Origin: Chloroflexota bacterium
GTDB lineage: Bacteria > Chloroflexota > Anaerolineae > J102
Assembly: GCA_013152585.1 (NCBI GenBank)
Contig: JAADGC010000120.1
Location: 23,324 to 56,570, forward strand
Reading direction: 5' to 3'
DNA length: 33,247 bases
The translations under genes were made by a program, and so were the position numbers. Positions 6,824-32,795 of the stretch are shown one piece after another. How positions within the stretch are numbered: position 1 is the first letter of the stretch; each line of letters begins with the position of its first letter. A model generated the notes under the pieces. The model was not told where the DNA came from. It saw only the letters and a list, made by a program, of their open reading frames with translations, and did no database searches.

Positions 6824-7060
6824 TCATGCTGACGTATCAGGCTGGGGATCGGAATCCGCCGGGGCCTGCCTGACGCCGGGAATGATCTGCCGTACCGCTT
6901 TGCGAAATTGCTGTCGCGGCAGCATCAGGCGGCGTTGACAGGTGGTGCAAACGAGGCCAATGTCGGCGCCTATGCGTACCACTGTCCACGCCCACCCCCC
7001 ACAGGGGTGCTGTTTGCGGAGGCGAACCACATCGCCGGGTTGGACATCAAGGAAGTTCAT
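6824..7060 (-). CDS. DUF951 family small protein
   Basis: This is a 78-residue protein that matches the DUF951 pattern: an opening [18 protein letters not shown], then [14 protein letters not shown], a CTTC pair, and an R-rich [14 protein letters not shown] segment. The family is small, widely conserved in Gram-positive bacteria and Chloroflexota, and has no firmly established role; nucleic-acid binding has been suggested from its basic beta-barrel-like character. The two Cys of CTTC plus the earlier Cys could bind metal, which is inference. The start ATG at 7060 begins directly with the conserved domain; the open frame extends upstream to 7255 but that part lacks similarity to the family. 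The C-terminal tail is acidic and probably disordered. Confidence 0.8.
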
Positions 7061-7160
7061 TGCATTATCTCGGGACCGGAACAGCATTTGGTGCCCCAGA
7101 TTATAACGCAATCCCGCCAATATGGCAGCATTGGCAGGGCCCGATCCCCGGGGACGCCTA

Positions 7161-8285
7161 TCAGACGATGAGTTCCAGTCGCTCGCCCAGTAGATGGGTA
7201 GGGGTTTGATGGATGGGCAAAAAACCGGCAGCAGCCAATTCGGGGGTAGGCGCACAAGCCTCGTCCGGTTTATCCGATAACGCCACGATCAAGACCCGGC
7301 GCTCTCGCAGCCATTGGCAGGCGTCCCACACCTCTTGCGTGAGACAAATCTCCTCAGCCTGGCGTTGCTGAGGCGTGGCAGTAGCCGGCAATGAGCCCAT
7401 ATGCGCCACGGTCATACGATATTCGTTGCGTCGAAAGTCCTTAAACGGTGTGGGATCATGTTGCTGGTTGGCCACGAACACCGCCTGATGCAGCGCCTGC
7501 AATGAAGATGAAAGAAGGTGACGCTGCGCCTCCACCACATCCAGAAAATGCGCAAACGTATTCATCTCGCCCCGGGCATGTTGGCTTCGCAGGATAGACA
7601 TCGGCACCACACCGGCACCGGTCATGATGCTGATATAAGCCAGATAATCCTGATTGTCCCCGGTCAGATCGTGGAACTCGGCCCGATTCAGCGCATGGTA
7701 GATGGCCGAAAACGCCGCAATATCGGCCTGTTCGCCGATAGCCTGCACCACGGTGGCGCGCATCGCTTCCAGGCGGGTTTGATCGATGATGCCATGATTG
7801 CGGCCGCGGGCGCCCAGGGCGGTTTTATCCACATCCACAATCGCAATCGTGCGTTCATCCAATGCCAGCCGGCGCTGGCGTAGTGCCTGCAGCCATGGCG
7901 CCAGCGCCCACCAGCGTTGCGCCACGAAAATATCGCCCTGCCACTGCCCGACCTCTGCCGCGGGGTCTCCTTCCCGGCCGATAAAGGCTGCGCCCGACCA
8001 GCCGGTGTACTCCGCCAGCCGTTGATACGCCCCCCCATCATTGCTGAGCGTATCCCCAATCAGCAGGAGTTCGCTGGGGTTTGTGTGCGCAGCATGGTGC
8101 TCATGAAAACGACGCAACATCCATGCCACCACCTGCGAATACTGCGGATCGCGTTTGCGCACAATGCGCGATGATGCCAGTCCCAGCGTCTGCCAGACTG
8201 CGCTGAGCCCGGGCACACCGGCATAAAACGGCTCCAGATTGCGATAAACGACGAAATCACCGGTGAGTTCAGAAAGGGTGTGCAT
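7161..8285 (-). CDS. HAD-superfamily-like hydrolase with permuted motif order
   Basis: This 374-residue cytoplasmic protein carries all HAD signature elements but in an unusual order. Near the N-terminus there is a motif III/IV-like block: a basic [12 protein letters not shown] helix start, then [11 protein letters not shown] (GDX4D, residues 77-83). The motif I nucleophile block, [11 protein letters not shown] (Asp151, Asp153), comes only in the middle. A helical cap-like region follows, and a motif II-like [12 protein letters not shown] (Ser about 337) lies near the C-terminus. That suggests a circularly permuted HAD fold acting on a phosphorylated metabolite. The ATG at 8285 has GGCGG seven bases upstream. 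An alternative GTG at 8291 would overlap the asd stop codon. A much longer frame reaching 8900 overlaps asd and is not credible. The tight link to asd, hom and lysC suggests a role in aspartate-family amino-acid metabolism. Confidence 0.65.
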
Positions 8286-8287
8286 GT

Positions 8288-9343
8288 TCACACCGCCATG
8301 ATCTGCTGGTGAACCATCCATTCGGCGTTGAGGATCGAGCCGCCGGCGGCGCCGCGAATGGTGTTGTGCCCCAATACCGAAAAGCGCCAGTCGAGCAGAT
8401 TGCAGGGCCGGATGCGCCCTACCACGGTGGCCATGCCTCGTCCGGTCATACGATCCAGGCGCGGCTGAGGCCGGGACATGCCTTCCACTACCACCACCGC
8501 CGGATCGGGGGCGCTGGGCAACCCCAGCTCTTGGGGGGAACGCCGGTAGGAACGAAAGGCATCGTTGATTTGCTCGGCTGTGGCGGGCGTGCGCAGCGCC
8601 ACCGATACTGCCTCGAAATGGCCGTCGAGCACGGGCACGCGGTGGCAGTGGGCGCTGATTGTCATGTTGGCATCGACAAAATGGCCCCCTTCGAAGCCTC
8701 CCATGATCTTCAAAGGCTCGGTTTCTACTTTCTCCTCTTCGCCATACTCGTGGGGCACGATGTTGTCGATCAAATCCAGGGCCGGCACGCCCGGATAGCC
8801 GGCACCCGACGCCGCCTGCATGGTGGCAACAAAAACGCTCTCCACGCCAAAGGCCAGGTGCAGAGGATGCAGTCCTCCCACGAGGTGGGTGGTGGTGCAA
8901 TTGGCATTGCAGACGATGAAACCATCCCAGCCGCGGCGAGCCTGCTGCACCCGCACCATGTTCAGATGCTCGGGGTTGACTTCCGTGATCACCAAGGGCA
9001 CATCCGGGGCCATGCGATAGGCCGATGCGTTGGAAAAAAGGTAATGCCCGGCAGTCGCAAAAGCAGGTTCGAGTTCGCGGGCCTGCTCGGAGGGGAGCGC
9101 CGAGAACAGAATCCGGGCCCCGGCGGCGTCCGGATGAGCGGGGCGCACGGGCATATCGGCGATGTGGGCGGGCAGGGGCGTATCCAGTATCCAGCTCACG
9201 GCGTCGCCATAGCGTTTGCCTGCCGAGCGTTCGGAAGCCAACAGATCGGTGATTTCGAACCAGGGATGCTGTGCCAGCAGCGAAATAAACCGCTGGCCAA
9301 CGGCGCCTGTAGCGCCCAACACGCCAACAGCAATTTTAGACAT
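8288..9343 (-). CDS. asd: Aspartate-semialdehyde dehydrogenase
   Basis: This 351-residue enzyme reduces L-aspartyl phosphate to aspartate semialdehyde with NADPH, the second step toward lysine, methionine and threonine. The N-terminal Rossmann motif LGATGAVGQRF binds NADP. The active-site cysteine sits in CNANCTTTHLVGGL, the catalytic region ASGAGYPG follows, and a GHFVDANMTISAHCHRV segment carries a substrate-binding His/Arg pair. The pattern is closest to the archaeal/fungal-type branch. The start at 9343 has AGAGGT seven bases upstream. It begins 11 bases after homoserine dehydrogenase ends, and the next gene starts two bases beyond its stop, indicating a single operon from lysC to the HAD-like gene. 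Confidence 0.95.
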   Translation of the reverse strand: MSKIAVGVLGATGAVGQRFISLLAQHPWFEITDLLASERSAGKRYGDAVSWILDTPLPAHIADMPVRPAHPDAAGARILFSALPSEQARELEPAFATAGHYLFSNASAYRMAPDVPLVITEVNPEHLNMVRVQQARRGWDGFIVCNANCTTTHLVGGLHPLHLAFGVESVFVATMQAASGAGYPGVPALDLIDNIVPHEYGEEEKVETEPLKIMGGFEGGHFVDANMTISAHCHRVPVLDGHFEAVSVALRTPATAEQINDAFRSYRRSPQELGLPSAPDPAVVVVEGMSRPQPRLDRMTGRGMATVVGRIRPCNLLDWRFSVLGHNTIRGAAGGSILNAEWMVHQQIMAV

Positions 9344-9354
9344 GATCCATACCT

Positions 9355-10446
9355 CTAAATAAGGAAAGACGTAGATAAGGCGACAAGATCAGCCATCACG
9401 CCGGCTGCGGTACCATGCACGCCGGCCCCGCGGCCCTGCAAGACCAGAGGGGCATCGGCATACACGTCGGTATGAAAAGCGATGAGATTATCGGTGCCCT
9501 GCAATTGGCCCAGCGGGCTACGCCGGGGCACTTCCTGCAGGCCCACCTGTGCTCGTCCGCGATCGATCGTGGCCACATAGCGCAAGACCTGATCCCGCCC
9601 GGCCGCCGTGGCCACGCGTTGTCGGTAGAGCTCGTCCAAATCAACGGTTTTTTGCATAAACTCCGGGACTGTTCCCTGGTTCATCGTATCGGGAAATAGT
9701 CCCTCCACCTGAATTTGGGGTAATTCCAGGGGCCAGCCCATGGTGCGGGCAAGGATCAGCGCCTTGCGGGCTACATCCATGCCTCCTAAATCGTCCCGAG
9801 GATCCGGCTCGGTGTAGCCGCTGGCCCGGGCCTGACGTACCAGGGCCGAAAATGCTTCGCCAGCCTGCAAGCCTGTGGTGAGATATCCCAAAGTGCCACT
9901 GAAGCAGCCCTCGATGCGATGAATAGGATCATGGGCGGCGATGAGCGCCTGCTGCAGCGTGGCGATCACCGGCACCCCCGATCCCACCGTGGCCTCATAG
10001 CGTACTCTTCCCCCCTTCAGCAAAGATAAAAAGGTCTCGTATGTCTGGGTGAGTGGTTTTTTGTTGGCCAGCACCGCCCCATAGCCGCGACTGAGCGCCA
10101 GTTGCAGGGCCTCGACAGTATCATCGCTGGCGGTCACATCGATGACAAGGGCGTTGGAGGTGCCCGCCACATCGACAATATCGGCCAACCCCTCGTGATC
10201 ATAGCCAATATCGAGATCGGCAAGGCTGGCGCCTTCTGCTTTGGCCGTCACTGTCCGCATCAGGTCGCCGTAAGTGAATCCTTGTTGTTCGATAGCCGCT
10301 CCCTGGCTATCACACAAAGCCACGTACGCAAAACGAATGCCGTAGCGCCACTCGAGTTCGTCCTGTGCCGCCAGCACCCGTTCTACCACGGCACGGCCCA
10401 CACCGCCCAGTCCAAATTGGATAAGTGCGATTTCTTTCATAGTCAT
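9355..10446 (-). CDS. hom: Homoserine dehydrogenase
   Basis: This 363-residue enzyme reduces aspartate semialdehyde to homoserine, the branch point to threonine and methionine. Visible features are the NAD(P)-binding QFGLGGVGRAVVE, VIDVTASDD, GAVLANKKPLTQ (Lys of the nucleotide site), YEATVGSGVPVI, the substrate-loop segment FSGTLGYLTTGL, and GYTEPDPRDDLGGMDVARK with the acidic residues that position homoserine. The protein ends soon after the catalytic domain, so the regulatory ACT domain found in many 430-residue homologues is absent. Its ATG overlaps the aspartate kinase stop as ATGA, like a bifunctional ThrA split into two translationally coupled genes. A second in-frame ATG at 10440 is possible. 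Regulation probably acts on the kinase. Confidence 0.94.
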   Translation of the reverse strand: MTMKEIALIQFGLGGVGRAVVERVLAAQDELEWRYGIRFAYVALCDSQGAAIEQQGFTYGDLMRTVTAKAEGASLADLDIGYDHEGLADIVDVAGTSNALVIDVTASDDTVEALQLALSRGYGAVLANKKPLTQTYETFLSLLKGGRVRYEATVGSGVPVIATLQQALIAAHDPIHRIEGCFSGTLGYLTTGLQAGEAFSALVRQARASGYTEPDPRDDLGGMDVARKALILARTMGWPLELPQIQVEGLFPDTMNQGTVPEFMQKTVDLDELYRQRVATAAGRDQVLRYVATIDRGRAQVGLQEVPRRSPLGQLQGTDNLIAFHTDVYADAPLVLQGRGAGVHGTAAGVMADLVALSTSFLI

Positions 10447-11876
10447 GGGGAGAGGGGTAAGTCGGAGGTTTGGGGTGTTGGCAGTTCAAAAAAGGCAGCA
10501 TGAATACGACGCACGGCTTCAGCAGCATCCTCTTCCGACACGACCAGCGAGATATTGACTTCGCTCGAACCCTGGGCCACAGCAATGACATTGATGCCCG
10601 CAGCACCCAGGGTGCTGAAAATACGGCCGGCAATGCCGGGGGTGCCGCGCATGCCGGCGCCAACCATAGCAATAATCACGATGTGTTCCTGCACCCGCAC
10701 ACGGTCGATGAAATGCCGGCGCAACTCCAGCTCCAGTTCCTGTTCGAGAGCACTGACGACGGCGGCCGCGTTTCTTTCGGGTACCGAAAAGCAGATGCTT
10801 TGTTCCGAAGAAGCCTGGCTGATCATCAGCACATTGGCTCCAACCTCGGCCACAGCCTTGAAGGTGCGGGCGGCAATCCCGGGCACGCCAATCATGCCCC
10901 GCCCTTCCACATTAACCAGGGTGAGATCATGAATGGCCGTGATGGCTTTAACCGAGCCTACCACTTCTCTTTCCGGTAAGACCAGCGTCGAGGGGCCTTC
11001 GGGATCGAAGGTGTTGGCGACGCGGATGGGAATGGAAGCTTCGACCACAGGTAGGATCGTCTTGGGGTGCAGCACTTTGGCGCCAAAATATGCCAGTTCT
11101 GCGGCCTCGACATAACTAAGCTCGGGCAAAGTCCTGGCTTCGGAGACGACGCGGGGATCGGTGGTGAGGATACCGTTGACATCCGTCCAGATTTGCACTT
11201 CGTCGGCGCCCAGACAGGCGCCCAGGATCGCAGCCGAATAATCGGTGCCGCCGCGGCCCAGGGTCGTGGCAATGCCATCTGCCGTGGCCGCCACAAAGCC
11301 GGTCACCACTGCCACCTGACCCTGATCGAGCAGGGGGCGCAAACGAGCATTGACATGGGCGCAGGTTGCCTCCATCAGGGGCGTGGCATCGCCGAAATGG
11401 GCATCCGTGACAATCATATCCGCTGCATCCACCCACACAGCATCGACGCCGGCCGCTCGCAACACGGCCGCCAACAGCGGCGCCGACATGCGCTCTCCCA
11501 GGCCAGACACCACGTCCAGCCCCCGGGTTGTCAACTCGCCCAAGACGTAGATCGATTGGCACAGTCTTTCGAATGAGCGTAGCAGATCGTCGATCAGGCG
11601 GCCGTAGGCGGCTCGCTCCACCCCATCAGCGATCAACTGCCCGGCGACCAACTGATGTTTGAGTAAGAGTTCACTGCGGGCGGCGTGGTACGGCTGTTCA
11701 TGGCCAGCCGCAGCAGCCTGCGCCGCCTCAATCAAGGTGTTCGTCGTGCCTTTCATGGCTGATGTGACCACTACCACGTGGGTGTCTTGTTGCCGCGCCC
11801 GGGCGATGATTTCGGTGACCTGCGAAAATGCTTGTGTCTGACCGACGGAGGTTCCGCCAAATTTCATGACGAGCAT
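10443..11876 (-). CDS. lysC: Aspartate kinase
   Basis: This 477-residue enzyme phosphorylates aspartate, committing it to the aspartate-family amino acids. The kinase domain (about 1-290) starts with MKFGGTSVG and includes LGRGGTDYSAAILG and WTDVNGILTTDPR. Two ACT domains follow (about 310-390 and 395-470); these contain GMIGVPGIAARTF, VLMISQASSEQSICF and GMRGTPGIAGRIF. The ACT pattern is close to that of kinases fused to homoserine dehydrogenase, and homoserine dehydrogenase is indeed the next gene, overlapping by four bases. Threonine and/or lysine feedback is expected from the ACT pair, but the effector cannot be read off. The ATG at 11876 has GGAG eight bases upstream. It is the first gene of the operon, behind the promoter at 12000-12028. 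Confidence 0.95.
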   Translation of the reverse strand: MLVMKFGGTSVGQTQAFSQVTEIIARARQQDTHVVVVTSAMKGTTNTLIEAAQAAAAGHEQPYHAARSELLLKHQLVAGQLIADGVERAAYGRLIDDLLRSFERLCQSIYVLGELTTRGLDVVSGLGERMSAPLLAAVLRAAGVDAVWVDAADMIVTDAHFGDATPLMEATCAHVNARLRPLLDQGQVAVVTGFVAATADGIATTLGRGGTDYSAAILGACLGADEVQIWTDVNGILTTDPRVVSEARTLPELSYVEAAELAYFGAKVLHPKTILPVVEASIPIRVANTFDPEGPSTLVLPEREVVGSVKAITAIHDLTLVNVEGRGMIGVPGIAARTFKAVAEVGANVLMISQASSEQSICFSVPERNAAAVVSALEQELELELRRHFIDRVRVQEHIVIIAMVGAGMRGTPGIAGRIFSTLGAAGINVIAVAQGSSEVNISLVVSEEDAAEAVRRIHAAFFELPTPQTSDLPLSP

Positions 11877-24263: not shown

Positions 24264-27200
24264 GTGATGAATGGCAAAGTACGTCAATCTCCCATTGTTT
24301 TTGTGGGACTCGCTTTGATGCTGGTTTTCACCATGGCCCTGCTGACGGTGACGGGAGTCTCTAACGCCCAAGTCGCCCAGGTAGAAACCATGGATGGCAC
24401 CAATCCCGGCCCCCAGCTCTGGCGGGTGCAGGAGTCCAATGCTTATGTCTATACACCCAGCATGAGCACCAATTACTGGGCCAGCCTGCGCATGCCAAGT
24501 GCTAATGTTGTCATCGACTGGCTGAAAGAGAGCGGGGCAGTATCACTGAATGCGACCGAGGCCGAACAGAAAGCCGCAGCCATCAATTGGTACAAAAGTT
24601 TTCTGAAAAAGAATTATGTCGGCCCTGATCCGTTAGAATTCCGCAAGTTGATGCAACGTGAAAAGGCTTTGATCTCGGGAGATCCTGCCGCCCAGGCGGC
24701 CACGGAGGAATTCTTCCCGCCTTCCCCGCGCGATCCCTTGTATGTCGTCGTCGAATTCGCCGGCACCGATACGATCACTCGCCCCTATCCCACCAATCCC
24801 GGTGATCCGGTAGATCCCGGCCCCTGTGTGGACACAGAATTCACCTGGGGTCCGATGATGTTGGGCGAAATGACGCCTCCGGGCCCGCGTGACAATTTCA
24901 CTTTCTTCAAGCCCGACATCGGCATCCCTGATTACGAATCGGTTATCTATGGCGAAGGCCCCGACGCCCCCGGTTACGGTGTGATCGATCACCCCAGTGG
25001 CCAGATCGATTTGACCGGCCTCACCATGCAGAATTACTTCAATGAGATGTCGCGAGGGACCTATCATGCCGGTGGGGGCGTCTTCCCCGAACCCATCCAG
25101 GTCAACCACTCTCATCAATACTATGGCTATGCCGACTACGCCGAAAATGCTGACGGCACCTGTGTCGTCCAGGGCATTCCCGTAGGCCACAACGCCCGCC
25201 AACTCCCACGCGACGTAGTGAATGCGTTGGTAGAACAATATGGCGACACCTACGATTGGAGCCAGCATGATGCTGATGGCGACCATATCATCGATCTCTT
25301 CGGCATCATCCATGCCGGTGGCGATCCGGCGGCTGGCGACAGCGAAGACTTCATCTGGAGCCATAGCTCAGCTTACATCCCCGGCTTCGAAGAGCTGCCA
25401 CAAATCGGCGGTCTCAGCACCCCGGATGATCCCAGTGACGACTACTTCATCTCCGGCTACAACCAGGATCCCGAACAACTGGACCTGGGTGTAATCCAGG
25501 AAGAGTTTGAGCATCAGTTCGGTCTGCCAGACCTCTATTCCACGGATGGCTCCAATTCCAATGCCTGGTGGGGCGCTCACTCCGCCGGCGTGTGGGGCGG
25601 TCCTTTGGGTGCCACCCGCCCGGTCGGCCACAACCTGTGGCAGGACTATATGCTGGGATGGCGCGATCCTGTCGTTGTCAACTACGACGATGCGGCGTTG
25701 GATCTGACGATTGGCCGTGCCCGATACACACCAGAAGGCACCGCCGATGGCTTGATCGTAAAATTGCCGCCGCAGGAAACCAACGTTCCTAACAATGCTG
25801 GCGATGGCATCGGCTGGTGGTCCAATTCCGGCGACTTGATGGACAATGTCGTCACCCGCGATTTCGATCTCACTGCTGCCACGGGCCAGGTTGTGTTCTC
25901 GTTTGATGCCGCCTGGGATATCGAGCAGGACTGGGACTACGGCTACGTTGAGGTCTCCACCGATGGCGGCGCCGCCTGGACATCCCTGCCCGACATGGAC
26001 GGCGTCCTCACTGACACCGATCCCAATGGCAACAACCAGGGCTGGGGCCTCACGGGCACCGATTCCGGCCATCTGAGCTTCGACCTGTCGGCCTATGCCG
26101 GCAGCACTGTGGGCGTACGCCTCCGCTACCTTACCGACCCGGCTGTCTCACAGCCCGGCTGGTGGGTGGACAACCTGTCATTGGATGATGACAGTGGTAA
26201 CCTGTACGCCAACGACCTCGAAACAGACTTCAGCGACTGGACCAACGAAGGGTGGCTTGTGGTACCGTTTGTGCAGAACATCGAACAATACTACACGGTG
26301 GAATGGCGCGATAACAACGGTTTCGACAAATCGCTGGATGATCCTTACTACTTCTACTACAACAACGAAGACGAAAGCGTCGTCAGCCGTTTGCCCTACA
26401 GCACGCCCGGTATGCTGGTCATGTACCGCAACACCGGCCAGGACTTCGACTACGAGATCAGCAGCGATCTGAGTGATTCACCCAGCTACGGGCCCAAATT
26501 CGCTCTGCTGGCCGTCGATTCCCACTTCGAAGCCATGCGCTTCGATACCACCTTCAACAGCTTCCAGGATGGTCTTGTGGGCCTGACTATGAATGGCCGT
26601 GTCAAATCTGGTAATGCTGCTTTCAGCCAGCATCCCACCAACGAAAAAACCGCCATCCTGGGCTTCGACCTCGATCAACCCGGCTCCCCCTACGTCGATC
26701 CTCCCCTGGAAGAAAAGACCTGGCCGGCCATGCCCGGTGAATGGGCTTTCCATGATGCCTGGGGTTACTATCCCGGCTTCTACTATCCTGGCGGCGGTTC
26801 TTCCGTGTACCTACATGACTGGGATGCCAGCCTTGCCATGCCAGCAACGGCAGACTACACCACCCGCGTTACCTGGCCCGACAGTGCGCCCTTCCCGCAA
26901 CTTTACGGTGTGCCCATTGGTCCTGCTGGCTTAGGCACGGGCAACCCCGGCGATGATGGCGTGCAATACGGCGTCCATGTCGAGATACTGAACGAGGCCG
27001 AAGACCAGGCGACCATTCGTTTCTGGAATGCGATGTACGATATGGATCTGGCGGCAACGGCTTACACGGACAAGGCTGTTCCCGGCGACACCGTCGACTT
27101 CCATTTCTTCTTCCGGAACACCGGTACTGCGGCTAACTTCTTTGGCTACTTCCCGTTGCCGGCCGGCGTCACCTATGTGGAAGACAGCGCATTCGGAGGC

Positions 27201-27986
27201 CTCGTGCCTGTGAACGCCCCCATGGCGCAAGCCTTGGCTGCCAAACGGGCCGGGCAAGACCTGATGGCCATGACGGCCACGCAAGCCGCGGACGTGCAGG
27301 GCTTCATCTTCGCGTACAATACTCCCACCAAAGGTGGTGGGCCCATGGGCTACCAGACGGTGTTGAATGATTCTTCTGCCGGCACCCGCATCGCCGGTAC
27401 AGGCACCTTCTTCGACATGGGCTATGGCGGCGATTATCTCTCCGCCTGGAAGACTGTCTCCACCGGTGAGGTAGCTGTGGCCAAGACGATCGAACTGCCG
27501 CTGGTGGCCGACACCTGGATCAATGGCGGCGACGTAGCCACCAATAACAACGGCTTTGCCGCCCTCATTGCCCGCACCACCGGCCTCGACAACGTGCTGC
27601 TGGCCTTCGACCGCAGCATGTTGCCCGTAGGAACACAGATCGTCGATGCTACCCTGACAGCCAACATCGCCGGACAATCAGGTCAATTCGGTAAATCACT
27701 GAACGTGCTCAACGCCGAAGACTTCGATCCGGCCGCTGTCACCTACACAACGGCTCCCAACACCTACAACCCCAGCGCCGCGGTCGCGGTTCCGGATGCC
27801 CCGGGCAGCGTCAGCTTTGACGTCAGCTTCAATGTCACAGCCTGGGATGCAGTGGGTGCGCAAGCCATGAATAACACGGGCTACCTGGCCATCAGCGCCA
27901 GCGGTCCCGCCGGTCGTGTGATCTTCGACAGCATGGAAACCTGGAACGCCACACCCGTGTCGCTGCAGGTGACCTACCTTCCCTGA
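24264..27986 (+). CDS. Secreted immune-inhibitor-A (M6)-like protein with degenerate zinc motif
   Basis: This 1240-residue protein begins with a signal peptide (about 1-36, ending near SNAQV). A propeptide-like region runs to about 140, and a metalloprotease-like domain with DADGDHIIDLFGIIHAG follows. The active-site helix reads IQEEFEHQFGLPDLYS (411-426). Family members normally have HExxH, for example HEFGHDLGLPDLYD; here the first His is Glu413, while Glu414 and His417 remain, so zinc binding is probably altered or lost. Next comes the M6 VEG/jelly-roll-like domain (about 510-660: GWWSNSGDLMDN, DYGYVEVSTDGGAAWTSL, PGWWVDNLSL). A DUF11-like segment and a C-terminal DNRLRE-type beta-sandwich (about 1075-1240, beginning LPLVADTWI) finish the chain. 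GTG 24264 is nine bases behind AAGGAG; ATG 24267 is equally possible. It is probably extracellular or surface-bound. Confidence 0.85.
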   Translation: MMNGKVRQSPIVFVGLALMLVFTMALLTVTGVSNAQVAQVETMDGTNPGPQLWRVQESNAYVYTPSMSTNYWASLRMPSANVVIDWLKESGAVSLNATEAEQKAAAINWYKSFLKKNYVGPDPLEFRKLMQREKALISGDPAAQAATEEFFPPSPRDPLYVVVEFAGTDTITRPYPTNPGDPVDPGPCVDTEFTWGPMMLGEMTPPGPRDNFTFFKPDIGIPDYESVIYGEGPDAPGYGVIDHPSGQIDLTGLTMQNYFNEMSRGTYHAGGGVFPEPIQVNHSHQYYGYADYAENADGTCVVQGIPVGHNARQLPRDVVNALVEQYGDTYDWSQHDADGDHIIDLFGIIHAGGDPAAGDSEDFIWSHSSAYIPGFEELPQIGGLSTPDDPSDDYFISGYNQDPEQLDLGVIQEEFEHQFGLPDLYSTDGSNSNAWWGAHSAGVWGGPLGATRPVGHNLWQDYMLGWRDPVVVNYDDAALDLTIGRARYTPEGTADGLIVKLPPQETNVPNNAGDGIGWWSNSGDLMDNVVTRDFDLTAATGQVVFSFDAAWDIEQDWDYGYVEVSTDGGAAWTSLPDMDGVLTDTDPNGNNQGWGLTGTDSGHLSFDLSAYAGSTVGVRLRYLTDPAVSQPGWWVDNLSLDDDSGNLYANDLETDFSDWTNEGWLVVPFVQNIEQYYTVEWRDNNGFDKSLDDPYYFYYNNEDESVVSRLPYSTPGMLVMYRNTGQDFDYEISSDLSDSPSYGPKFALLAVDSHFEAMRFDTTFNSFQDGLVGLTMNGRVKSGNAAFSQHPTNEKTAILGFDLDQPGSPYVDPPLEEKTWPAMPGEWAFHDAWGYYPGFYYPGGGSSVYLHDWDASLAMPATADYTTRVTWPDSAPFPQLYGVPIGPAGLGTGNPGDDGVQYGVHVEILNEAEDQATIRFWNAMYDMDLAATAYTDKAVPGDTVDFHFFFRNTGTAANFFGYFPLPAGVTYVEDSAFGGLVPVNAPMAQALAAKRAGQDLMAMTATQAADVQGFIFAYNTPTKGGGPMGYQTVLNDSSAGTRIAGTGTFFDMGYGGDYLSAWKTVSTGEVAVAKTIELPLVADTWINGGDVATNNNGFAALIARTTGLDNVLLAFDRSMLPVGTQIVDATLTANIAGQSGQFGKSLNVLNAEDFDPAAVTYTTAPNTYNPSAAVAVPDAPGSVSFDVSFNVTAWDAVGAQAMNNTGYLAISASGPAGRVIFDSMETWNATPVSLQVTYLP

Positions 27987-28364: not shown

Positions 28365-31300
28365 ATGAAATTACCCCAACTTGCTGTTTCTCTGCCATCC
28401 TCTTTTTCCGTGCCCCTGACTGTGCGTACAGTGCTTTTGTGTTTGATATGGGTTTTACTGTTGGCACAGGGTGGGACGACCGCACCAGTCCTGGCGCAGG
28501 GGCCTGGTGGAAGCACGGGCGACGTGCAGCGGTATCTGCGCCCACCCGGCGCCGAGCAGGTGACGGCCCTCTTGCAGGCCGAAGGGCGCCTCGCTGTGGG
28601 GGCATCGGTCCAGGAAAGTGCGCCAGTTGTGCGTGCCTGGTATCAGCAATTCCACAAAGCGCACGACATCGGGCCCGCACCCGCGGCCTGGGCGCGCTTG
28701 CAGGCGCGGGAAACAGCCTTGCTGCATGGCGATGTGCAGGCAATGGGCAGCGATCTCACGCCCGCACCCACCCATATCCTGGGGCTGGTAGTCGCATTCG
28801 GGGGCGAAGATCAGATCGTCCGTCCCTATCCCGACCCAGTGACGGGCGCCTGTGTCGATACGACATTCAACTTCCAGCCGTTAGCCTTGGGGCAAGACCC
28901 GCCTCCCGGCCAGCGCGATAATTTTAGCTTTTACAAAGCCACTATGGGCCCCGACGCCTATGATGCGGTATTGTTCGGTATCGGCCCGGATGCCCCCGGC
29001 TACGGCGTGGTGCGTCCCGACCTGGGCGGCATTGATCTCTCCGGCCTCACCCTGAACAATTATCTATTAGAAATGTCTTCGGGCGCGTATCAGGTGGGAG
29101 GCGGCGTCCTTCCCCAGACGGTGACTCTGCCCCACGCCCCGGAGAGCTACGGCTATGCCCTCTATCAGGCGGACGCTCAGGGCCGGTGTCAGGCCGATCC
29201 GGCCAGCGATGCCGGTTTCATGGCCTTTGCCCAGGATGCAGTGACAGCCATGGCCATAGACTATCCCGATCAGACCTGGAGCCAGTTCGACGCCAATGAC
29301 GATCATGTTGTCGACCTGCTTTTCCTCATCCATGCCGGCTACGGCTGGCAGGATGGCGGCGGCGAAGACCGGCTCAGCGATGGCAGTTCCTCCTTTAGCC
29401 TCAACGGCCTGGCTCAGCCGCAGATCGCCGGCCAGCAGACCCCCAATGATGCCAGCGACGATTATTTTGTCGATAATTTTGCCGTGTTTTCCGAGCAAAC
29501 GGATTTGGGAGCATTTCAGGAGACGTTCGAGCATTATCTGGGCCTCCCTGATCTGTCTACGCTGGACAGCATGAATGCGAACGGCTTTTGGGGATCGTTG
29601 GCTGCCGGGGTCTGGGGCGGACCTTTGGGCGGTGTGCGACCGGCCGGGCACAATCTGTGGCAGGATTGGCTGCTGGGCTGGAAAAACCCGCTGATCATCG
29701 ACTACGATGATCCTGCCCTTGACGTAACGATAGGTCGGCTGCGGCAACAACCTGCGGACACCGTCGATGGCCTCATTATTCTCCTGCCGCCCAAAGAGGT
29801 GGAGGTGCAGAACCGTGCCGGCAGTGGCGGCGGTTGGTGGTCTGGTTCAGAAAACAATCTGGATCACCGTATCTGGCGCGGTTTTGACCTCAGTCAGGTG
29901 GGGGAGCATCCCGTGTTTTCATTCGACGCCTATTGGAATCTGGAAACCGGCTGGGATTATGGCTATGTCGAGGCCTCGAAAGATGGGGGGGCGACGTGGA
30001 CTTCGTTGGCAGATGAGGATGGCCGCCTCACCCGCGACAATCCTCATGGCCTGAACCAGGGCTGGGGCCTGACCGGACAGGGGCAGGGGCGTCTGCATTT
30101 TGATCTTAGTGCTTTCCGCGGCCTGAGCATTCAGTTGCGTTTGCGCTATGTGAGCGACCGCTTCGCCACCGAACCCGGCTGGTGGGTGGATAATCTCTCG
30201 TTGGATGACGAGCAGGGCAATGTGTACAGCGACGAACTGGAGACGATCACGACGGACTGGCACAATAATGGCTGGTTGACCACGCCCTTTGTCAGGCGCA
30301 GCGACCATTATTATCTGGTGGAATGGCGCGATGCCAGTGGCTTTGATCAGACGCTCAACGATCCTTATCAGATTGTGTATCAAGATAAGCTTAACCATGA
30401 AACCAAGGTGAACCGTCTGCCTGCCACCACGCCCGCCCTGATCATCAGCTATCGCGACCTCAGCCAGCCGTTCGACGACGAATTGTTGAGTGATCTGGCG
30501 TCTCCACCCAGCTATGGGCCCAAATATGGCCTGTTGGTGGTCGATGCGCATTTTCAGCCCCAGCGTTTTGATACAACCTCGCCGGCATTTCAGGATGCCT
30601 GGGTGGGGGTGCCGCTCAGTGGCCGGGTGATGCCGGGCGACGCCGGCTTTGGCCTCACGCCCACGCAGGCCTGGACGGCTCGGCTGGGCTGGGATTTCGA
30701 CACGCAGTCATGGAGCGAGACGCCGCTGGAGACGAAATCATGGCCCAGTCAGGCGCCGGTGCCCGCGTTCCACGATTCCCTCAATTACACCCCCGGCTTT
30801 TTCTATCCCGGCACCGGCTCGCTGCTCTATCTGCACGATTGGGATGCCAGCGCCGTGATCCCGGCCCGTGCCGACTATGCCACCCCCATCACCTGGCCCG
30901 ATGATCAGCCTTACCCCGAGCTCTTTGGGGTGGAAGTGGCGCCGGGGCGGTTGCTGGGCACGGGGAACCCCGGCGACGGGGGGGCGCAGTACGGTCTGCA
31001 CATCCAGGTGCTAACCCAAAGCCCGGAGCAAGCCACCGTGCGGGTGTGGAATGCCATGCACGAGGTGGCGGGCGCGGCCTCGGCCAGCCCCGCTTCTGCC
31101 CACGTGGGGGAGCGGGTGACGCTGGCCTTCAGCGCCCGGAATGTGGGCACGGCTGCTGATTTCTTCGCTTTTGCGCCCTTGCCCGCGGGCGTGCGTTATG
31201 TGCCGGACAGCGTCAGCGGCGACCTTTTCCCCGTGGGTCTGCCCACAGCGCAACTGCTGGCCAACTGGCAGGCCGCGGAGAGTGCGACCCTCACGGCTGC

Positions 31301-32795
31301 CACTTCCGCCGACGACATCAGTGGCTTTGCCTATCTGGGAACGTTGGCCACGGGCGAGAGCATGGCTGGGAGCTTTGTGGTGGAGGTAGAGCCAGGGCAG
31401 CACATTGCCGACGTCAACGCTTCACTGATCTTCTATGTCGACCAGCAGCCCGAACCCTTCCGCGTACTTTCCACCACCCTGCACGTGCAGAACACAGCCC
31501 CCACCCTTAGCCTTCCCGCCGATCAGCAGCTTGACGAAGGATCGACCCTGCACGCGACAGCTTCTTTCAGCGATCCTGATGCCGATACCTGGACGGGAAC
31601 GGTGGATTATGGCGATGGCTCCCCGGTCCAGTCCTTGGTCTTGGCACCCGACCACAGCTTTGCCCTCGAACATCGCTATACGCAAGACGGCGTTTACCCG
31701 CTCGGTGTGACGCTGAGCGATGGCGAGGCCAACGCCAGCGGCCAATTCACGGTGACGGTCAGCAATGTAGCGCCTACATTCACTCTACCTGCCACCGCGG
31801 CATTGAACGAAGGCGATTCATTACAAATGAGCGGCGAAATGCACGACCCGGGTGCGGATACCTGGACGTTGACAGCGGATTATGGCGACGGCTCCGGCAT
31901 CCAACCGTTGGCTCTGTCCCCCAACCACAGCTTTGTCCTCGAACATCGCTACGCCGACAATGGCACGTACACCGTGACCGTGCGTGCCGATGACGGTGAG
32001 GATGTGGGCGTTGCCCGCGTGCAAGTGGATGTGAGGAATGTGGCGCCGAAGGTGACGCAGTTGCATGTTGCTGCCGCAGCCGCGGGCGAAGCCGTGACTG
32101 TAACCGTTGCCTTCGTTGATCCAGGCGCCGATAGCTGGTCGGCAACGCTCGATTTTGGCGACGGTTCGCCGCCGTTGGAACGGGCAGATGTGACCCCGCA
32201 ATTCGCTGCCAGCCATGTTTACGCAGCCGCCGGCGTCTATACGCTCTCGTTAACTGTTGGCGATGATGATGGCGGCATAGGCGCCGCCACCGCCCAGACG
32301 AGCGTGTGGACCACAGTCAGCCTGCCATTACTGGCCGACACCTGGGTGGATAGCGGCACGCCGACCACGAATTATAATGCCTATGCGGCATTGATTGTAC
32401 GCCCCACCGGCCTGGACAATGCCTTCCTCAGCTTCGATCGCGCCCTGCTCCCCCCCACAGCCGACATCCGCAGCGCCCAACTCACCCTGACCGTTCTCTT
32501 CGAATCGGGTGCGGCCGGTAAGCGCCTGCAAGTGCTGAATGTGACAACCTTTGACACCACGCAGGTGAGCTATGCCAACGCCCCCGCCACTTACAATCCC
32601 GACACACCGGTGGTCGTGCACCCGGGCCAGCTAATACTGGATGTGTCGGCGCAGGTATCTGCCTGGGCCGATGACTCGGGGCCGGGACAGTTGGCGCTAA
32701 GCGCCACCGGCCCGCGCGGGCGCATCGCTGTGGCCAGCCGGGAAAGCTGGCCGTCGGGGCAGGAGCCAACGCTACAAGTGACTTTTGTGCCGTAA
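28365..32795 (+). CDS. Secreted M6-like pseudoprotease with three PKD domains
   Basis: This 1476-residue paralogue of the preceding gene is collinear with it through the protease-like, VEG-like and DUF11-like parts. The signal peptide spans about residues 1-45 (ending TAPVLAQ). The helix corresponding to HExxH reads FQETFEHYLGLPDL (384-397): first His replaced by Glu386 and catalytic Glu by Thr387, with only His390 kept, so peptidase activity is very unlikely. Unlike its neighbour it has three PKD-type beta domains (about 1045-1130, 1134-1222, 1225-1305), each with a YGDGS or FGDGS turn and a HRY or HVY strand. A C-terminal DNRLRE-like domain beginning LPLLADTWV (about 1318-1476) follows. It may act as a surface adhesin or substrate-binding scaffold, which is inference. 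The ATG has GAGG seven bases upstream. Confidence 0.87.
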   Translation: MKLPQLAVSLPSSFSVPLTVRTVLLCLIWVLLLAQGGTTAPVLAQGPGGSTGDVQRYLRPPGAEQVTALLQAEGRLAVGASVQESAPVVRAWYQQFHKAHDIGPAPAAWARLQARETALLHGDVQAMGSDLTPAPTHILGLVVAFGGEDQIVRPYPDPVTGACVDTTFNFQPLALGQDPPPGQRDNFSFYKATMGPDAYDAVLFGIGPDAPGYGVVRPDLGGIDLSGLTLNNYLLEMSSGAYQVGGGVLPQTVTLPHAPESYGYALYQADAQGRCQADPASDAGFMAFAQDAVTAMAIDYPDQTWSQFDANDDHVVDLLFLIHAGYGWQDGGGEDRLSDGSSSFSLNGLAQPQIAGQQTPNDASDDYFVDNFAVFSEQTDLGAFQETFEHYLGLPDLSTLDSMNANGFWGSLAAGVWGGPLGGVRPAGHNLWQDWLLGWKNPLIIDYDDPALDVTIGRLRQQPADTVDGLIILLPPKEVEVQNRAGSGGGWWSGSENNLDHRIWRGFDLSQVGEHPVFSFDAYWNLETGWDYGYVEASKDGGATWTSLADEDGRLTRDNPHGLNQGWGLTGQGQGRLHFDLSAFRGLSIQLRLRYVSDRFATEPGWWVDNLSLDDEQGNVYSDELETITTDWHNNGWLTTPFVRRSDHYYLVEWRDASGFDQTLNDPYQIVYQDKLNHETKVNRLPATTPALIISYRDLSQPFDDELLSDLASPPSYGPKYGLLVVDAHFQPQRFDTTSPAFQDAWVGVPLSGRVMPGDAGFGLTPTQAWTARLGWDFDTQSWSETPLETKSWPSQAPVPAFHDSLNYTPGFFYPGTGSLLYLHDWDASAVIPARADYATPITWPDDQPYPELFGVEVAPGRLLGTGNPGDGGAQYGLHIQVLTQSPEQATVRVWNAMHEVAGAASASPASAHVGERVTLAFSARNVGTAADFFAFAPLPAGVRYVPDSVSGDLFPVGLPTAQLLANWQAAESATLTAATSADDISGFAYLGTLATGESMAGSFVVEVEPGQHIADVNASLIFYVDQQPEPFRVLSTTLHVQNTAPTLSLPADQQLDEGSTLHATASFSDPDADTWTGTVDYGDGSPVQSLVLAPDHSFALEHRYTQDGVYPLGVTLSDGEANASGQFTVTVSNVAPTFTLPATAALNEGDSLQMSGEMHDPGADTWTLTADYGDGSGIQPLALSPNHSFVLEHRYADNGTYTVTVRADDGEDVGVARVQVDVRNVAPKVTQLHVAAAAAGEAVTVTVAFVDPGADSWSATLDFGDGSPPLERADVTPQFAASHVYAAAGVYTLSLTVGDDDGGIGAATAQTSVWTTVSLPLLADTWVDSGTPTTNYNAYAALIVRPTGLDNAFLSFDRALLPPTADIRSAQLTLTVLFESGAAGKRLQVLNVTTFDTTQVSYANAPATYNPDTPVVVHPGQLILDVSAQVSAWADDSGPGQLALSATGPRGRIAVASRESWPSGQEPTLQVTFVP

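Follow-up and report, generated by a model that had tools for sequence, protein, structure and literature searches.

A likely circularly permuted HAD-like protein encoded downstream of asd in Chloroflexota

The window analysed here, a 33,247-nucleotide stretch from the genome of a Chloroflexota bacterium (contig JAADGC010000120.1), carries an operon-like run of genes for aspartate kinase, homoserine dehydrogenase, aspartate-semialdehyde dehydrogenase (asd) and a HAD-like protein (Table 1). The ATG of the HAD gene lies 2 nt past the asd stop codon. The sequence-only reading had placed this last gene exactly, as translation confirmed its coordinates, ATG start and length of 374 residues, and the motif strings that it quoted fall at residues 42-48 (VRKRDPQ), 73-83 (motif IV block), 150-155 (VDVDKT) and 332-343 (motif II block), with the motif I aspartate correctly numbered as Asp151. 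The HAD motifs therefore follow one another along the chain in the order III-IV-I-II. On the same strand and downstream, the listed start of an open reading frame at 6824-7255 overlaps the 3′ end of the HAD gene; translation probably begins at an internal ATG, and its C-terminal ∼75 residues presumably resemble a DUF951-type small protein.

Table 1. Genes and protein features of the asd-HAD locus (window positions; residue numbers refer to the HAD-like protein).
Feature	Position	Strand	Evidence
Aspartate kinase, same operon	10443..11876	-	TIGR00656, 408 bits, over cut-off
Homoserine dehydrogenase, same operon	9355..10446	-	NCBIfam; best E 1e-87, homoserine dehydrogenase part of PRK09436
asd, aspartate-semialdehyde dehydrogenase, asd_EA type	8288..9343	-	TIGR00978, 433.7 bits, over cut-off
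Permuted HAD-like protein, 374 aa (likely)	7161..8285	-	ATG start, stop codon counted; ORF and translation, homologues, alignment
N-terminal block, residues 1-141, bearing motifs III and IV	7863..8285	-	hhalign to HAD_2 C-terminal half
R43-K44, motif III Lys	8154..8159	-	Invariant; K44 opposite K of GKPDPE in permuted-core alignment
G77-D78-T79...D83, motif IV (GDTxxxD, 77-83)	8037..8057	-	G77, D78, D83 invariant; weak 2hcf match
D151-V-D153-K-T155, motif I, putative nucleophile and acid/base	7821..7835	-	D151, D153, K154 invariant; profile match
RGR (160-162), tripeptide past motif I	7800..7808	-	Invariant in 34 proteins
Helical insert, residues 173-310, C1-position cap	7356..7769	-	Between motifs I and II; helical in low-confidence model; invariant polar residues
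Cap motif TxDNQD (208-213)	7647..7664	-	T208, D210-D213 invariant
Cap motif DPTPFKxFR (277-285)	7431..7457	-	T279, P280, F281, F284, R285 invariant; D277, P278 nearly so
S337-D-K-P340 (SDKP), putative motif II	7266..7277	-	Invariant; no significant profile match

Two further regions of the window were described. Between 13721 and 22786, one strand encodes a GntR regulator, two carbamoyltransferases, a Nudix protein, a 23S-rRNA-insert-like four-helix protein, a carbamate kinase, ThrC-like and cysK-like PLP proteins and a metallo-beta-lactamase, which together look like a carbamoyl/purine-type catabolic cluster. At 24264-27986 and 28365-32795 lie two adjacent large, related proteins with M6-protease-like stretches (EEFEHQF, ETFEHYL); by the look of their N-termini they may be secreted, and the pair is an apparent tandem duplication.

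Homologues of the HAD-like protein were found only in Chloroflexota. A single-sequence scan of a genome collection reaching beyond this phylum gave one homologous locus (59% identity), also from Chloroflexota, and together with a 400-genome Chloroflexota sample and the window's own family (f1) the searches yielded about 37 distinct homologous genes in addition to that of the window. Counting as holders those genomes with a near full-length match (E 3e-45 or better), there were 29 among the 400, the window's genome included; within f1, 9 of 20 genomes carry the gene, two of which were already in the sample. Presence and absence cluster by lineage, most of the 29 holders belonging to a single family (f25). 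No relative was seen in the viral contigs, plasmids and phages scanned. We aligned the window protein end to end with 33 diverse homologues, the most distant sharing 32% identity, and R43, K44, G77, D78, D83, D151, D153, K154, S337, D338, K339 and P340 were invariant in all 34 proteins. The motif order III-IV-I-II was likewise common to all 34. Because the quoted motifs are invariant and always occur in this order, they are not chance resemblances; the suggestion that all four are intact and that the gene is not decaying held, given three dozen or so homologues in which every putative catalytic residue is retained.

Standard searches gave little indication of a HAD relationship. In its native order the window protein matched no Pfam or NCBIfam family, and hence not TIGR00191 (the GHMP-type ThrB); a Pfam search with permuted sequences returned nothing, PF00702 appeared as one sub-threshold match (E 0.16), and no member of the family reached any Pfam HAD cut-off. 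Matches of single members to Pfam HEPN, and other scattered weak matches, were dismissed as chance. A sequence search of the PDB with the window protein gave no meaningful E-value, and the best match of a whole-length profile was the HAD protein 2hcf over the motif IV stretch, weakly (E 0.17); permuting this profile raised the match to E 0.11, no decisive gain. Because the curated models and the PDB were silent, we built a HAD profile for hhalign from 24 PF13419 (HAD_2) proteins of related genomes. The N-terminal block (residues 1-141) matched the C-terminal half of this profile (P 2.4e-4; equalled by 0 of 200 column-shuffled decoys), and the motif I block (residues 142-172) matched HAD positions 1-24 (P 5.5e-4; 1 of 200 decoys). 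Neither block matched decoy profiles of aspartate-semialdehyde dehydrogenase or aspartate kinase, and both matches persisted, weaker in places, when the family was split into two subsets. With the cap excised and the core permuted, D151 and D153 fell opposite the HAD DxD, K44 opposite the motif III Lys and D78 opposite the motif IV Asp. For motif II, S337 stood opposite the HAD Thr under a restricted target, an alignment that 43 of 200 shuffles scored equally well.

Structure prediction was uninformative as to the fold. AlphaFold models of the full-length protein and of residues 1-172 were each made from a two-sequence alignment (the window protein and that of locus L003) and reached pLDDT 49 and 53, respectively; at these values their Foldseek matches were given no weight for or against the HAD Rossmannoid core with its 3-2-1-4-5 sheet order, squiggle and flap. 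The low-confidence model has a helix, a strand at GDT, a helix, a strand, a helix and a strand at DVD, followed by a ∼140-residue helical stretch, a helix and a strand at ALS. With low confidence, this predicted pattern would be that expected of a permuted HAD, whose strands would run S4-S5-S1-S2, the last two being separated by the helical insert. The central proposal of the sequence-only reading, a circularly permuted HAD domain, thus stands as regards motif order, invariance and two independent block matches on the correct HAD halves; motif II is left with no significant profile match and the fold with no confident three-dimensional model. Because conservation and these two matches, each on the right half, favour it, we infer from the sequences that the protein is likely a permuted HAD, a reading better supported than any alternative and as yet unproven.

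The genomic setting points to the metabolism of the aspartate family. Seventeen loci from seven family-level lineages were examined, and in 15 of them the HAD gene comes directly after asd. Two loci of family f61 (G142 and G385) have the order ThrC, aspartate kinase, GNAT acetyltransferase, asd and HAD, the ThrC gene of G385 (L077) being truncated where the contig begins. We consider it rather probable that the permuted HAD acts in the aspartate family, where its substrate would most likely be a phospho-amino acid of the aspartate-threonine pathway. We analyzed the distribution of homoserine kinases in the 400 genomes, calling ThrB by TIGR00191 at E 1e-30 or better. ThrB was present in none of the 29 holders and in 284 of the 371 non-holders (Fisher's p 1.6e-17, a value that ignores shared ancestry, the fair count being seven lineages), and the PGM-type kinase TIGR02535 was over its cut-off in 0 of 29 and 30 of 371, respectively. 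All 47 genomes tested, whether or not they carry the HAD gene, have threonine synthase (ThrC). Since every holder tested has threonine synthase and none of the 29 has ThrB, holders must phosphorylate homoserine somehow.

Several observations run the other way. The permuted HAD and a recognised kinase are both missing from 59 of the 400 genomes, those checked retaining ThrC, and a search of these 59 for distant relatives of the permuted HAD, run without a positive control, found none. Eleven non-holders of the window's own family (G402, G403 and G405-G413) have threonine synthase and no permuted HAD, and in the five of them that were checked, with TIGR02535 not among the kinases surveyed, ThrB was in no case over cut-off. 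Further kinds of homoserine kinase, the shikimate-kinase-like enzyme of Desulfovibrio among them (PMC5764234), lay outside the survey. Holders in f25 also carry a gene with weak similarity to thrB_alt (TIGR00938) and APH-like proteins. Such APH-like proteins were seen in genomes of f25 and f61 (L098, 5905-6909; L099, 5791-6768; L101, 5589-6623), and inspection of the neighbouring open reading frames placed their genes away from threonine genes. They are possible homoserine kinases of another kind; given its location, the f25 gene was provisionally not adopted as a dedicated kinase.

A role in homoserine phosphorylation is thus favoured by the adjacency to asd, the absence of ThrB and TIGR02535 from holders, the retention of threonine synthase and the precedent of ThrH, and is opposed by the 59 and 11 genomes described above, the thrB_alt/APH-like gene of f25 and the clustering by lineage. 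That a HAD might phosphorylate homoserine is plausible because ThrH does so (PMC1079889). By this analogy the permuted HAD could, as a tentative proposal, supply O-phosphohomoserine by phosphotransfer in lineages that lack ThrB. The fuller claim, that several Chloroflexota lineages phosphorylate homoserine with this family, which works by phosphotransfer via Asp151 rather than as an ATP-dependent kinase fold, is in our judgement doubtful. The strongest competing explanation accepts the permuted HAD and makes it an ordinary phosphatase, acting for example on phosphoserine or in metabolite repair, whose place downstream of asd is incidental, the loss of ThrB being ancestral and unrelated. Of 26 genomes tested, just one had a SerB over cut-off, as this explanation would allow, and it also accommodates the many non-holders without ThrB and the APH-like candidate of f25. 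However, most loci retain the pairing with asd, in several family-level lineages, and other SerB-like HADs were found in these genomes; we regard an ordinary phosphatase as possible, though not the outcome we would expect.

Our best reading, which we hold to be probable, is that the protein is a circularly permuted, capped, Mg2+-dependent HAD phosphatase or phosphotransferase of the aspartate family. In the proposed architecture the chain order would be III-IV-I, a ∼140-residue helical cap and then II; the old N- and C-termini would be joined at residues ∼125-147, and the new ends would fall between motif II and motif III. From HAD chemistry, D151 would be the nucleophile that forms a phospho-aspartyl intermediate and D153 would serve as the acid/base; the phosphate in transfer would be held by S337 and K44, Mg2+ would be bound by D78 and D83 together with D151, and the invariant polar residues of the cap may select a small charged substrate. 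One alternative is that the protein is not a HAD at all but has another Rossmann-like fold in which the DxD and GDT motifs arose by chance. The silence of the curated models on any HAD family and the lack of a good structural model fit this view; nevertheless, two separate blocks match HAD profiles at the catalytic positions, with 0 and 1 of 200 shuffles scoring as high and no match to the decoy profiles, and every would-be catalytic residue is invariant, and we therefore regard it as improbable. A domain-swapped dimer, in which the HAD core is completed between two chains because the halves do not close within one, is compatible with the motif order and has nothing specific in its favour, and it is very improbable given that the S5-S1 linker, which runs to about 45 residues and includes a helix, is long enough to let a single chain close on itself.

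If the permuted HAD reading is true, the HAD catalytic core tolerates permutation with all four motifs kept. Few phosphatase superfamilies are as large or as well studied as the HADs, and a natural family with a permuted core is undescribed in the full-text literature that we searched for work on HAD permutation, on homoserine kinases and on ThrH, a search with most subscription journals outside its scope and hence weak as evidence of novelty. The nearest relatives by motif are the C1-cap HAD phosphatases (HAD_2, PF13419, of the Gph/PSP type), which share DxDx(T), the Lys, GDxxxD and the block-wise profile matches, and putatively also the Ser/Thr and a helical insert that parts motif I from motif II, but have the order I-II-III-IV where the Chloroflexota family has III-IV-I-II. 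ThrH is a PSP-like HAD of conventional order. In Pseudomonas it moves the phosphate of phosphoserine onto homoserine (PMC1079889), and it resembles the Chloroflexota protein in the HAD chemistry predicted for the latter and in the predicted link of the latter to homoserine phosphorylation, whereas no sequence match between the two was found.

Homoserine kinases yet to be found are an acknowledged gap (PMC5764234, PMC9026213), and the enzyme has yet to be assigned in bacteria that have threonine synthase but none of the known homoserine kinases (PMC5764234); the permuted HAD is a testable candidate for this gap. ThrB (GHMP, TIGR00191), the PGM-type ThrB2 (TIGR02535, PMC9026213) and thrB_alt (TIGR00938) possibly serve the same pathway step, and the occurrence of ThrB and TIGR02535 is complementary to that of the permuted HAD, but none of these enzymes is a HAD and their sequences are unrelated to it. 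The CheY receiver domain shares its Mg2+ site and phosphate-binding residues with HAD proteins (PMC10400377). Although CheY has a separate, cap-less receiver fold and is not a phosphatase with HAD motifs I-IV, the comparison of CheY with HAD is the closest known precedent for one site being recognised across a non-trivial structural relation.
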